Assembly: GCF_000243155.2 (NCBI RefSeq)
Contig: NC_018017.1
Span: 1,240,001 to 1,304,000, forward strand
Direction of reading: 5' to 3'
DNA length: 64,000 bases
Origin: Desulfitobacterium dehalogenans ATCC 51507
GTDB lineage: Bacteria; Bacillota; Desulfitobacteriia; Desulfitobacteriales; Desulfitobacteriaceae
In this document: in pieces, positions 1,018 through 43,278 of the stretch
Layout: the number at the start of each line of letters is the position of its first letter
Numbering within the stretch: the stretch's first letter is position 1
The notes under the pieces: model-generated
What the model was told of the DNA's origin: nothing
Database searches by the model: none
What the model saw: the letters and a program-made list of their open reading frames with translations, nothing else
Position numbers and translations under genes: made by a program

Positions 1018-2607
1018 ATGAGCAAAGAAGAAACCAACCCGGAGGTTAATAGAAATTCAGTTCCAGGTGAGAAACAAGAAGCTGCTCGGTTAATGATCCA
1101 AGGGACTTCTTCCAATGTAGGAAAAAGTGTCTTGGCGGCGGCCTTTTGCCGGATATTTTATCAAGAAGGGTATCACGTAGCACCTTTTAAGGCCCAGAAC
1201 ATGGCTTTAAATTCCTTTATTACCCGCTCTGGAGGAGAGATGGGCAGAGCTCAGGTGGTACAGGCCCAGGCTGCAGGATTAGAGCCTGATGTGCGGATGA
1301 ATCCTGTCTTGCTGAAACCCACGGGACACACAGGATCCCAGGTGATTGTTCTGGGCAAAGCCCAGGGGACTCTTTCTGCCCTTAAATATCACGGGGATTA
1401 CCAGAGAAAAACCTGGCCCATTGTGGAAAAAGCTCTCCATGAACTTCTTGAGGAACATGAGATTGTAATTATCGAGGGAGCCGGAAGTCCCGCGGAAGTG
1501 AATCTCAAGCAAAATGATATTGTCAATATGCGCGTAGCCAAGGAAGCCCGGGCTCCCGTGCTTCTGGTGGCAGATATTGATCGGGGGGGAGCCTTGGCAT
1601 CCGTGGTTGGTACCCTTGAGCTCCTTGAGCCGGAAGAACGCGAATTGGTTCGGGGAATTGTGATGAATAAATTCCGAGGGGATATTAAACTTTTACAACC
1701 GGCCTTGGATTTTCTTGAAGAACGAACCGGAATTCCTGTGGTGGGAGTCGTTCCCTTCTATGATCAATTTAAGATTCCGGAAGAAGATTCCGTGGTTCTT
1801 GAAGAACAGAATAAAAGCAAACAGGATAAAGGGAAGAGCCGGGATGAAGCGTTAGATGTAGCGGTCATTCGCTTACCCTATTTATCTAATTTCACAGATT
1901 TTGATCCTTTTGAAGATGAGTCTGATGTCATTCTTCGCTATGTCCGGGAACCTGCTGAGCTGGGGCAGCCGGATTGTGTTATAATCCCCGGAAGCAAAAA
2001 CACTTTATCGGATCTGCGATTTTTATGGGATAGTGGTCTAGGTGAGAAAATTATCAAGTACTGGAAAGAGGATGTCCCCATTATTGGAATTTGTGGCGGC
2101 TATCAAATGCTGGGACGAGTGGTTCGGGACCCGTTGGGTACTGAATCTGATTTGAAGGAAATCACAGGACTGGGTATTCTTCCTATGGAGACTGAGTTTG
2201 TGTCGGATAAACATACGGTGCAAAGTCGGGGCAAGGTCGTAGGAGAGGAGCTGTTCTTGTCACGTTGTCAGGGGACAGAGATAACCGGTTATGAAATTCA
2301 TATGGGGCGTTCCCAGGGAGAAGGTAATTCCCTTTTTGAGATCGAAGCCCAAGGAACAGTTTATGGAGATGGTATGTTAAATGGTAGTGCTTTTGGAACT
2401 TATCTCCATGGGATATTTGATAATGATCCCTTGCGAACCGCGTTCTTGGAATGGCTTTGGGAGAGAAGGGGAGGGACACGTTCAGTAGACAAGACCATGT
2501 CCCAGGCAGCAATTCGCGAGCAGGCCTTTAATGAACTGGCGGACTGGGTAAGAAATAGTATGGATATGGAAAAAATTCGTTCTATTATGGGTCTGCACAA
2601 AGGATGA
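1018..2607 (+). CDS. cbiP: Cobyric acid synthase CbiP/CobQ
   Basis: This 529-residue glutamine-dependent amidase adds four amide groups to adenosylcobyrinic acid a,c-diamide. The N-terminal dethiobiotin-synthetase-like ATPase domain has the P-loop GTSSNVGKS at residues 29-37. The C-terminal class I glutaminase domain has the nucleophile in GICGGYQ (Cys359) and the His of YLHGIFDND (His464). A charged Lys/Glu-rich linker near residues 262-280 joins the domains. The RBS GAGGTGAGAG lies just before the ATG. The TGA overlaps the cbiB start (ATGA). The first ~22 residues precede the conserved core and are a short leader. Confidence 0.95.
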   Translation: MSKEETNPEVNRNSVPGEKQEAARLMIQGTSSNVGKSVLAAAFCRIFYQEGYHVAPFKAQNMALNSFITRSGGEMGRAQVVQAQAAGLEPDVRMNPVLLKPTGHTGSQVIVLGKAQGTLSALKYHGDYQRKTWPIVEKALHELLEEHEIVIIEGAGSPAEVNLKQNDIVNMRVAKEARAPVLLVADIDRGGALASVVGTLELLEPEERELVRGIVMNKFRGDIKLLQPALDFLEERTGIPVVGVVPFYDQFKIPEEDSVVLEEQNKSKQDKGKSRDEALDVAVIRLPYLSNFTDFDPFEDESDVILRYVREPAELGQPDCVIIPGSKNTLSDLRFLWDSGLGEKIIKYWKEDVPIIGICGGYQMLGRVVRDPLGTESDLKEITGLGILPMETEFVSDKHTVQSRGKVVGEELFLSRCQGTEITGYEIHMGRSQGEGNSLFEIEAQGTVYGDGMLNGSAFGTYLHGIFDNDPLRTAFLEWLWERRGGTRSVDKTMSQAAIREQAFNELADWVRNSMDMEKIRSIMGLHKG

Positions 2608-3578
2608 TGTTCATGATAGTATTGCTTAATCCCATAGCTTTTTGTTTAGGATTTCTATGGGATCAAGCCGTGGGTGATCCGCCAAAATGGCCTCATCCTG
2701 TTATCTACATGGGGAAGATTATCGCTTGGTATGATAAGCGCTTTAACCAGGGGAGGCCCCGGCTTCGCCGCCTGAAAGGTGCTCTACTTACCCTGATTCT
2801 AGTGATAGGAAGCTATATCTTAACAGCTGGTATAATTGGGGGAGCCAAAGAGATCTCCGCGGTCTTTGGCCTTATCATTGAAGTACTTCTCCTTGGCTCT
2901 ACCCTTGCCGGTAAATCCCTTCTGGAGGCTGGGAGTCAAGTGCTTACCCCGTTAAAAGAAGGGAAACTTGATGAAGCACGAAACAAGTTGGGTTGGTTTG
3001 TCAGTCGCGATACCGCCCAATTATCGGAAGGGGAAATAGCTCGGGGTACGGTGGAGACCTTAGCGGAGAATTTTGTAGACGGCATCCTTTCTCCACTATT
3101 TTATATGCTCATTGGCGGGGCACCTTTGGCTATGGCTTTTAAGGCTGTAAGCACTTTGGATTCTATGATCGCCTATCGCAATGAGCGTTATGAAGACTTT
3201 GGCCGCTTTGCCGCCCGAGCCGATGATTGGGCTAACTATCTTCCGGCCCGTCTCTCGGTGGGCATTCTTTCACTGGCAGGATGGTTTTATAAGCTGCCGG
3301 TAGGCTATGCCCTAACGATCTGGCGCAGGGATGCCAAAACTCATCCCAGTCCCAATGGTGGTAATCCCGAGAGTATGGTTGCGGGATTGCTGGAAATCCA
3401 GCTGGGAGGGAATAATATCTATCACGGCAAGGTTCACCACCGGGCTGAGATGGGCGATCCTCTCCATGAGCTGACCTGGCTTGATATTGAGCGGTGTCAA
3501 AAATTAATTCGGCTGGGGACTTGGATTAGTTTTGCGCTAATCCTTTCAGGTATCGTCTTTGTCAATAGTATCATGTAA
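2604..3578 (+). CDS. cbiB: Adenosylcobinamide-phosphate synthase CbiB
   Basis: This 324-residue integral membrane protein belongs to the CbiB/CobD family, which attaches aminopropanol phosphate to adenosylcobyric acid. Diagnostic segments are WDQAVGDPPKWPHPVIYMGK near the N-terminus, ARGTVETLAENFVDGILSPLFY around residues 145-170 and the C-terminal HPSPNGGNPES. Several hydrophobic membrane spans are visible (about residues 7-20, 60-85, 90-105, 165-180, 300-322). The gene overlaps cbiP by 4 nt. Three in-frame ATGs cluster at the start (2604, 2607, 2613), so the exact N-terminus is uncertain. It is the last gene before a long structured non-coding block that separates it from cbiA. Confidence 0.93.
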   Translation: MMFMIVLLNPIAFCLGFLWDQAVGDPPKWPHPVIYMGKIIAWYDKRFNQGRPRLRRLKGALLTLILVIGSYILTAGIIGGAKEISAVFGLIIEVLLLGSTLAGKSLLEAGSQVLTPLKEGKLDEARNKLGWFVSRDTAQLSEGEIARGTVETLAENFVDGILSPLFYMLIGGAPLAMAFKAVSTLDSMIAYRNERYEDFGRFAARADDWANYLPARLSVGILSLAGWFYKLPVGYALTIWRRDAKTHPSPNGGNPESMVAGLLEIQLGGNNIYHGKVHHRAEMGDPLHELTWLDIERCQKLIRLGTWISFALILSGIVFVNSIM

Positions 3579-4209
3579 GTGATCTGACTTGGAAAAGCTC
3601 CATAAGCTGCGCGGACAAAACTAACGCTCAAGCACTCGCTCCGAAAGGTGCCCGGCCAATTCGCTCCATGCTCAATGGCCGGTTGGAAACGTCCTGTTTC
3701 CAACCTTTCTCCGCTGCGTGCTTTTCGCGAAGTTTTGTTTCCGCTCGCTTAAATTCACTCCCTTTTGTAAAGCAAAATCCTTGGGTAGTTTTTTAGGTTT
3801 GAGCGGAGCGATGTGGAATAAACGACCCGATCCAAGCAGCTTTTTCAGCCTTGCCGACGCCGCTTGCGGCATGGTCGGCTACCCTGGGAAAGACTCTGGA
3901 GATGACCTCAGAGATGACTTGAAAAAGACCCAAAAGCGTAGCTTTGCGCACAAAAGGGAACGGCTTTAGCGGAGGAGCGGTCCGGTGAAAGAGGCTTTCT
4001 TAACACTGTGGAGCCACCGGTTTGCATGCAGAAAGCAGCGGGGTTTGGCGTAACAGTTAAGAAAGCGAGTAAACCAGCTCCGGAGCTTTGGAGTGACCGT
4101 TGTGCGTAAAGCTATGCGACCCGGACGACATTTTTCATCCTTTACTGGTGCTGCGACAGCGGCATGAATAGCTACCCTACCCAGAAAATTTTGCGAAGAG
4201 GTGAAGACA
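3579..4209 (+). ncRNA. 630-nt structured non-coding block inside the cobalamin operon
   Basis: No credible gene lies here. The first part closes on itself through nested helices. ACAAAACT (3615-3622) pairs with 3731-3738, AAGCAC (3630-3635) with 3718-3723, and GAAAGG (3643-3648) with 3704-3709. Together these enclose two abutting perfect hairpins: CCGGCCA/TGGCCGG (3652-3682) and TTGGAAAC/GTTTCCAA (3683-3703). Further on, GCCGAC-GCCGC pairs with GCGGC-GTCGGC (3853-3879), GGGTAG 3783-3788 with CTACCC 3879-3884, and GCTTTCTTAAC (3994-4004) with 4056-4066. A competing or pseudoknotted pairing joins CCGGTG 3982-3987 to CACCGG 4015-4020. It is either a large structured RNA or a repeat-type insertion. 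It does not match the cobalamin riboswitch as I know it. Confidence 0.55.
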
Positions 4210-5634
4210 ATGCCCCATTCCATGCCTCCCCGTATTCTTATCGCTGGGACCCACAGTGGTGTAGGTAAGACAACCATCGCTACAGGGATCATGGCAGCCC
4301 TGGCTAAGAAAGGACTTCCTATCCAAGCCTATAAAGTTGGTCCCGACTATATCGATCCCACTTATCATACTTTGGCTACGGGCCGTCCTTCTCGGAACTT
4401 AGATCGATGGATGCTTAGGGAAGAGTTAATCCCGATTTTTAAAAGAACTTCTCAAGATTGCTGGGCGGTCATTGAAGGGGTTATGGGGCTTTTTGATGGG
4501 GTATCAGGAACCAAAGGATATGGTAGCAGTGCTGATATTGCCAAGCTGCTGGATGCTCCTGTGATCCTGATCGTGGATGCGGGCAATTTATCACGTAGTG
4601 CAGCGGCCATAGTCCATGGTTTTTGTACCTTTGATCCTGGGATTAAGATTGCCGGAGTCATTCTCAATCGGGTGAAATCTCCAGCCCAAGAAAGCTTATT
4701 GCGTGAAGCCCTTGGCGAAATTCAAGTACCCATATTGGGAGTGCTGCCTAAGGAAGAGGGAATTCGTCTGCCCGAACGGCACCTGGGACTGGTTCCTTCT
4801 CAAGAACAAGCTTTCCGGGAGAGTTTTTTTGACGAGCTTATCAGCGTGGTGACCCGCACCATTGACCTGGAACAGATCCAAGGGATTATGCAGGAAACCT
4901 TGCCGAAAAAACAGGTTATACATGAGCCATTCATCGAAGAACCGATTATATATAAAGGCTTGGGTGAAGGGGCAGCAGGGAATCTTAATCAACATTCCTT
5001 GCGATTGGGAGTGGCACGGGATGAGGCCTTTTCCTTTTACTATCAAGATGCTTTGGATAGTGCAGAAAGCCTAGGATTTACGCTGGTTCCCTTTAGCCCT
5101 CTTCATGACCCGTCTCTACCGGATGGATTGGATGGGCTCTTTTTTGGTGGTGGATTCCCAGAGCTGCATTTAGAAAAGCTTAGCCAGAACCAGAGTTTTT
5201 TGGAATCGTTACGAGAGTTCTCGCGATTAGGGAAACCCATCTACGGGGAGTGCGGGGGATATATGTATCTAGGCGCACAGGTTACGGATTTTGAAGGTAG
5301 AACATACCCCATGACTGGACTGATTCCTATTGCAGCCGAGATGACGCCAAGACTTCAGGGTATGGGCTATCGTCAAGGCGTCTTTCAACAGGATAATTTT
5401 CTGAGTGATGCAGGAAATGTGGTTTACGGTCATGAATTTCATTATTCAAAAGTGGATTATCTAAGTTGTGGTGATTCGGTTTGTCCTGCTTTTGAACTGC
5501 TTAAAGGGGAAAAGACCATAAGAATGGACGGTTATGCTCGGGATAATATCGTCGCATCTTATCTTCATATCAACTTCGCAGGACAACCGGAGCTTTTGCA
5601 GCACTGGGCGGAGCATATACGGCAAGGAGCATAG
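4210..5634 (+). CDS. cbiA: Cobyrinate a,c-diamide synthase CbiA
   Basis: This protein amidates the a and c carboxylates of cobyrinate using ATP and glutamine. The N-terminal ATPase domain has the P-loop GTHSGVGKTT at residues 13-22. The C-terminal glutaminase domain has the nucleophile in YGECGGYMYLG (Cys348) and a conserved HEFHYS and SYLHINFAG near the end. A GTG at 4201 is also in frame, but GAGGTG at 4197-4202 is well placed for the ATG at 4210, giving 474 residues. It ends 2 nt before cobA. It is separated from cbiB by the structured block but continues the same pathway. Confidence 0.93.
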   Translation: MPHSMPPRILIAGTHSGVGKTTIATGIMAALAKKGLPIQAYKVGPDYIDPTYHTLATGRPSRNLDRWMLREELIPIFKRTSQDCWAVIEGVMGLFDGVSGTKGYGSSADIAKLLDAPVILIVDAGNLSRSAAAIVHGFCTFDPGIKIAGVILNRVKSPAQESLLREALGEIQVPILGVLPKEEGIRLPERHLGLVPSQEQAFRESFFDELISVVTRTIDLEQIQGIMQETLPKKQVIHEPFIEEPIIYKGLGEGAAGNLNQHSLRLGVARDEAFSFYYQDALDSAESLGFTLVPFSPLHDPSLPDGLDGLFFGGGFPELHLEKLSQNQSFLESLREFSRLGKPIYGECGGYMYLGAQVTDFEGRTYPMTGLIPIAAEMTPRLQGMGYRQGVFQQDNFLSDAGNVVYGHEFHYSKVDYLSCGDSVCPAFELLKGEKTIRMDGYARDNIVASYLHINFAGQPELLQHWAEHIRQGA

Positions 5635-43099: not shown

Positions 43100-43256
43100 A
43101 GAAAAGCTTACTACATAAGCAGGTGTTTACGCCCATATGTGTCTCAATGCTTACGAGGTTAGCTGACGGGTTCGAGCTGAAACATGCTCTACGTTTGAAA
43201 CGATTCACCCCTAAATTGGTTCCCCCGTTTTCCTCTTGGGAAATTAAGCCCATATA
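43100..43256 (-). promoter_or_regulatory. Cyclic di-AMP riboswitch (ydaO/yuaA type)
   Basis: On the - strand the leader shows the ydaO signature in order: GGCTTAATTTCCC (P1 side, near 43250), GGGGGAACCAATTT, GGGGTGAATC (43202-43211), GCTCGAACCC, and GTCAGCTAACCTCGTAAGC (43149-43167). GCTTA near 43245 and TAAGC at 43149-43153 can close P1. A terminator follows. ydaO-class aptamers bind c-di-AMP and usually turn genes off when it is high. The transcript begins at a promoter around 43279-43307. A - strand open frame of 88 codons over this region is not a gene. Confidence 0.93.
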
Positions 43257-43278
43257 AAGTTGCATAACTAACAACTTA

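Follow-up and report, generated by a model that had tools for sequence, protein, structure and literature searches.

A dispersed repeat of inverted structured units, probably related to TwoAYGGAY RNAs, lies between cbiB and cbiA of Desulfitobacterium dehalogenans

The non-coding block between cbiB and cbiA in Desulfitobacterium dehalogenans ATCC 51507 is almost certainly one copy of a dispersed repeat built of inverted structured units. We analysed it within a window of 64,000 nucleotides (the whole stretch of DNA under study, whose positions are used below) and against its own genome and those of relatives. The units are in all probability related to TwoAYGGAY (RF01731), a family recorded from human gut, gamma-Proteobacteria and Clostridiales (PMC2864571). 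The best explanation, which we hold with even confidence, is that divergent TwoAYGGAY RNAs have expanded in a REP-like manner and been passed on vertically, and that the conserved GGA hairpins of one unit type, unit A, may bind CsrA. Annotators gain a previously unrecognised repeat that splits operons in this taxonomic family, and a poorly understood RNA family is linked to a REP-like repeat whose positions are fixed and shared among related species.

The block holds only short spurious open reading frames, and none that codes across it, as the preliminary description had held. That description also named the flanking genes correctly, to judge by NCBIfam matches; cbiA starts at GTG 4201 or ATG 4210. 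A simple consensus scan of the block found no promoter- or terminator-like site. Rfam was searched with the window and returned neither a cobalamin riboswitch nor any other family at the block. The only match above cut-off in the window was a c-di-AMP riboswitch (RF00379, 91 bits) at 43133-43260 on the minus strand.

The helices first described are exact in the sequence. They comprise 3615-3622 (ACAAAACT) with 3731-3738 (AGTTTTGT), 3630-3635 (AAGCAC) with 3718-3723 (GTGCTT), 3643-3648 (GAAAGG) with 3704-3709 (CCTTTC), the 7-bp hairpin CCGGCCA..TGGCCGG (hairpin 2 of Table 1), the 8-bp hairpin TTGGAAAC-GTCCT-GTTTCCAA (hairpin 1) and the 11-bp helix GCTTTCTTAAC/GTTAAGAAAGC. The claim that such complementarity exceeds chance holds as well: on both strands, 3590-4170 folds better than every one of 100 dinucleotide shuffles (z -5.1 on plus, -3.7 on minus). 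A proposed CCGGTG/CACCGG pseudoknot is present in the sequence, but all six pairs occur in only 3 of 71 B units and the pairing is not conserved. The single nested fold that had been drawn gives way to two inverted units. Its helices are real, but the inferred RNA strand of unit A is minus, and the first half as drawn is therefore an antisense image. Three features had gone unmentioned: an outer helix that closes the second half (3937-3953/4100-4116), the loss of the 5' arm from the corresponding helix of the first half, and the spacer hairpin (Table 1).

Table 1. Parts of the cbiB–cbiA locus, in window coordinates
Feature	Position	Strand	Remarks
cbiB (adenosylcobinamide-phosphate synthase), upstream neighbour	2604..3578	+	NCBIfam TIGR00380, 258.7 bits (cut-off 165.9)
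Remnant at the place of the unit A outer-helix 5' arm	3579..3597		Arm CTCCAGGATTTTGCTTTACACCG lost in the window copy
Unit A, divergent TwoAYGGAY-type structured unit	3598..3784	- (inferred RNA strand)	Loops, GGA, RF01731 in relatives
Hairpin 2 of unit A	3652..3682	-	Loop GGA on minus at 3665-3667
Hairpin 1 of unit A	3683..3703	-	AAACAGGACGUUU on minus; loop GGA at 3692-3694
Spacer between units A and B	3785..3936		Length and sequence differ among copies
Spacer hairpin GCCGAC-GCCGC..GCGGC-(atg)-GTCGGC	3853..3879		Found in many copies
Unit B, related to A but inverted and diverged	3937..4116	+ (inferred RNA strand)	Covariance model R1, 194 bits
11-bp helix of unit B	3994-4004/4056-4066	+	Pairs in nearly every copy
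Right end of element, second spacer-type hairpin GCTGC..GCGGC	4141..4175		
cbiA/cobB (cobyrinic acid a,c-diamide synthase), downstream neighbour	4201..5634	+	NCBIfam NF002204, 519 bits (cut-off 254)

Copies of the repeat occur at many unrelated loci of the 4.32-Mb genome, which bears out the dispersed non-coding repeat proposed as one option at the outset. The block matches 69 BLAST pieces at about 41 places, with 71-96% identity, and at least 7 more full-length places come from a covariance model of unit A. The genome holds at least 45 copies. These and all other copy counts are lower bounds because the searches scored 32-40 candidates per genome.

The typical copy reads A, spacer, B, and both A-only and B-only copies are present. 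In unit A, of about 213 nt, a long outer helix (CCAGGATTTTGCTTTACA..TGTAAAGCAAAATCCTTGG) leads through a series of inner helices to two hairpins that abut; unit B, of about 180 nt, has an outer helix of 15-17 bp (CGTAGCTTTACGCACAA..TTGTGCGTAAAGCTACG). Some copies carry optional hairpins inserted in loops, in mosaic combinations. Covariance model R2 matches the window's unit A with 185 bits at 3575-3784. The outer-helix 5' arm that is lost here is retained by 37 other A units of the same genome, and L085, the orthologous copy of another species, has it almost complete (CTCCAGGATTCTTGCTTTACACCG). Hairpins of the GCCGC..GCGGC type lie between and after units at many loci, the two in Table 1 among them. 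Their reverse complement often begins GTAG and continues as an imperfect palindrome, a layout reminiscent of REP sequences.

Unit B is related to unit A but inverted and diverged, which makes the element an inverted pair. In one search the A model matched B units on the opposite strand only (E 1e-11 to 4e-4), a match that counts for little by itself because the reverse strand of A, too, reaches 20-50 bits with this model. In other genera, the A model clearly matches each partner of a pair at a place of its own, and the close pairs examined share one arrangement in 15 of 15 cases (binomial p 6e-5).

Several pairs and clusters illustrate the range of layouts. An inverted pair of A units lies at the same place in D. 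dehalogenans (L045:3976-4651) and in a relative, G002 (L136:4647-5082), where both units are apparently partly merged or truncated. A Desulfosporosinus-type genome holds three near-identical 300-nt unit copies in tandem (L152:9394-10266), a local amplification, and at locus L154 four units are spaced about 355 nt from one another. Spacers of about 520 nt in two further inverted pairs (L150:5940-6460 and L159:3687-4212) carry direct repeats of about 110 nt (CGGCACCGATTCAGATGGTGC.. ATGCACGAAGCATGTCCC..).

The relation to TwoAYGGAY runs through intermediate sequences. The Rfam comparison suggested at the outset gave a divided answer: the window gives no match to RF01731 even at E 10, and no unit in its genome reaches the membership cut-off of 43 bits, but homologous units in many Desulfosporosinus-type genomes pass it, on the A-minus strand. 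One unit of a relative (G031:C11:122471-122624:-, 48.8 bits) lies within an A-model match of 163 bits (122438-122655:+), and a unit of G002 scores 40.9 bits (E 2e-5) where the A model gives 176 bits. Homology thus holds by way of intermediates on one and the same strand, and the units of the window and its genome, being below cut-off, are divergent relatives and not formal members of RF01731. In a sample of genomes from the phylum, the family is multi-copy in most positive genomes. The D. dehalogenans genome also has a partial TwoAYGGAY match at G000:C1:3933577-3933640 on the plus strand (34.7 bits, model positions 45-113, the two-hairpin core), which coincides with none of the listed unit places.

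Comparison with relatives shows that the copies are old and were inherited in place. The 5.6-Mb sister genome (G001), a second species, carries a copy in the orthologous position between the two genes, 82% identical within the element. The short gap between cbiB and cbiA in G002, G009, G011, G015 and G018 has no element; in a third species, which does not have it, the two genes are about two dozen bases apart. In G014 the gap is about 250 bases. Among D. dehalogenans loci with flanks inside the examined sister stretches, 24 of 25 are occupied in the sister, a fraction that overstates sharing because those stretches were chosen around the sister's copies. One A-only copy, L035, faces an empty orthologous site (L035/L089). 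Within the taxonomic family, 35 of 46 genomes yield matches to the A model; among 28 other genomes of the order, none does. The collection of papers that we searched contained nothing relevant on Desulfitobacterium or Desulfosporosinus repeats.

Covariation supports a large structured RNA, another option first proposed, both across copies and between orthologous copies. RNAalifold finds 66 pairs in unit A, 14 of them with two-sided changes, and 53 in unit B, 6 of them with such changes. The closing stem of hairpin 2 of unit A occurs in the compensating variants GGCC/GGCC, GGCT/AGCC, CGCC/GGCG, GCCC/GGGC and AGCC/GGCT. At 23 loci the A copy was compared with its orthologue in another species, almost always the 5.6-Mb sister. 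These comparisons show 90 double Watson-Crick changes, which fall on 16 base pairs, versus 0-5 in controls with partners slid by 1-3; the 90 are not independent events, because gene conversion among copies can spread them.

Base composition and wobble pairs point to an RNA strand for each unit. We infer A-minus and B-plus, with the 5' ends facing the spacer. Unpaired consensus positions on the plus strand are pyrimidine-rich in A (T28 C24 A10 G1), and so purine-rich on minus, and they are purine-rich in B (A23 G24 T10 C5). Between orthologues, B shows a wobble asymmetry on the plus strand (G-U:A-C 95:23). Unit A shows none (35:40), so its strand assignment draws on loop composition, GGA loops and RF01731. 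We lean towards the view that the units act as RNA.

A possible but doubtful alternative is a REP/BIME- or MITE-like element whose structure matters as DNA, whether as a hairpin or cruciform, a single-strand transposition substrate or a nucleoid or gyrase site. Dispersed intergenic copies and inverted pairs in one fixed arrangement suit such an element, as do tandem amplification in a relative, the REP-like spacer hairpin and the even wobble ratio of unit A. Gene context, judged from open reading frames around 40 copies, is also in its favour: 19 point the same way as both neighbours, 16 point the opposite way, 5 lie between convergent genes and 0 between divergent genes. Units sense and antisense to the transcript show no difference in pairing or identity, which, together with the occurrence of both orientations, lends no support to a role inside mRNAs. 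Against a DNA element, however, purine-rich loops and GGA loops are restricted to one strand, wobble asymmetry in B is strong, and the homology to an Rfam RNA family is same-strand. The copies stand mostly at orthologous positions, which implies little recent mobility, and no target duplication is visible at L035/L089, the single empty site examined. We considered an IS200/RAYT transposase as the mobilising enzyme and rejected it; IS200-type (Y1) matches in the genome are broken only (G000:C1:3340137-3340490 and 3415479-3415831).

It is quite improbable that the repeat is a neutral relic, an old sequence decaying in place whose apparent covariation stems from gene conversion and not from selection. 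Mosaic copies with optional inserts, truncated copies, the lost 5' arm in the window and conservation independent of transcription direction all agree with decay. Yet paired columns diverge less than unpaired ones between orthologues (9.8% vs 15.1% in A, 11.5% vs 25.6% in B), compensatory changes are numerous, and the structure is kept full-length across genera of the taxonomic family at 60-200 bits. Least probable of all is the operon-internal regulator specific to cob that the preliminary description had entertained, a cis-acting terminator, attenuator, riboswitch or processing site: the element does lie within the operon in two species with its B unit sense in the cob mRNA, but it also stands at the other unrelated loci in both orientations to genes, is missing between cbiB and cbiA in the short-gap genomes, and at this copy is losing the outer helix of unit A, and the block lacks a terminator- or promoter-like site. 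A cobalamin riboswitch or cob leader was rejected as well, there being no Rfam match and no restriction of the repeat to cob loci. Under the expansion of divergent TwoAYGGAY RNAs that we favour, the structure of the element is still under selection.

The GGA loops of unit A suggest CsrA as a partner, and CsrA binding by TwoAYGGAY has been predicted (PMC4333381). Across the genus, the minus strand carries one or more GGA hairpin loops in 92 of 92 A units, and the plus strand in 0 of 92. TCCT (plus strand) is invariant in both A hairpin loops in all 25 aligned copies. An automated test with a 5-bp stem scored one GGA loop in 82 of the 92 units and two in just 10, because the inner stem of hairpin 2 is short. 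A units hold 10.0 GGA each versus 5.9 in dinucleotide shuffles, a strand-specific excess. B units differ: 70 of 71 have no GGA hairpin loop, and the arrangement of two adjacent GGA-loop hairpins is not found in them.

The distribution of csrA is consistent with such a partnership. The gene is present in the D. dehalogenans genome (G000:C1:3552797-3552952, 85.6 bits, cut-off 27). In family f1, 29 of 35 genomes with csrA hold at least two units, versus 1 of 11 without it; after quality filtering, at least one unit is found in 19 of 22 versus 0 of 5. In a 299-genome sample of the phylum, csrA occurs in 22 of 23 RF01731-positive genomes versus 194 of 276 others (p 0.007). These co-occurrence counts are confounded by relatedness, incomplete genomes and genome reduction. 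We consider it plausible, somewhat short of an even chance, that A units bind CsrA via their GGA hairpins. In some relatives, short csrA-like genes stand side by side in groups of two or three (G018:C6:115102-115915, G041:C21:11258-12283 and G051:C319:298-929).

From these elements we can outline how the repeat might work. An element of two inverted, divergent TwoAYGGAY-type units around a spacer, their RNA strands directed outward, would have entered the cbiB–cbiA gap in the ancestor that D. dehalogenans shares with its 5.6-Mb sister, and would then have been inherited in place. Wherever a copy is transcribed, the RNA-sense unit would fold, and the inverted arrangement would leave one unit in sense whichever side transcription came from. 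GGA hairpin loops of the A type could then bind CsrA, and many copies together might form a distributed CsrA-binding pool or provide local CsrA sites in carrier mRNAs. Transcription of the units is presumed here, as would be any effect on the cob genes. The cob operon mRNA contains unit B in its plus, or sense, orientation. Since B has lost the GGA hairpins, and unit A, antisense in that mRNA, no longer has its complete outer helix, the repeat is unlikely to act on cob expression specifically through CsrA or to have a specific role in cobalamin regulation.

A broader idea, which we rate as rather unlikely, is a genome-wide sponge. Many TwoAYGGAY-type units would titrate CsrA in clostridial relatives without a known CsrB-like RNA, inverted pairs would expose one unit either way, and the repeat, domesticated or selfish, would be selected as RNA rather than DNA. 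If CsrA is bound, a control layer known to PMC4333381 (2014) only from Gammaproteobacteria would operate here over many sites, not one gene. The many natural copies, with their strong covariation, offer material for working out the function of TwoAYGGAY.

The repeat shares traits with several known systems. Like bacterial MITEs, it is a short, non-coding, dispersed element with terminal complementarity, its outer helices resembling inverted repeats; unlike them, it is old and vertically inherited, and we found neither a parent transposon nor a target duplication at the one empty site. REP/BIME and REPIN sequences are likewise extragenic inverted pairs of structured units in many copies, and none of the 40 copies examined here lies between divergent promoters. 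Their units are 20-40 nt long and RAYT-mobilised, whereas the units here span 180-213 nt, keep their positions between species and have no REP-associated transposase that we could find. The CsrA/RsmA-sequestering sRNAs CsrB, RsmY and RsmZ resemble unit A in their repeated GGA in hairpin loops, alongside csrA in the genome; each is one highly expressed sRNA gene, in contrast to many intergenic copies known from sequence, with B units lacking the loops. Set against TwoAYGGAY (RF01731; Weinberg et al. 2010, PMC2864571), the A units of D. dehalogenans stay below 43 bits, the B units lack GGA hairpins, and the inverted pairs in REP-like numbers have no counterpart in the papers we read. Unit A nonetheless shares with that family its two abutting GGA-loop hairpins on a long imperfect stem, and the units in relatives align with it on the same strand over the full length, in a family that is itself multi-copy in many genomes of the phylum.
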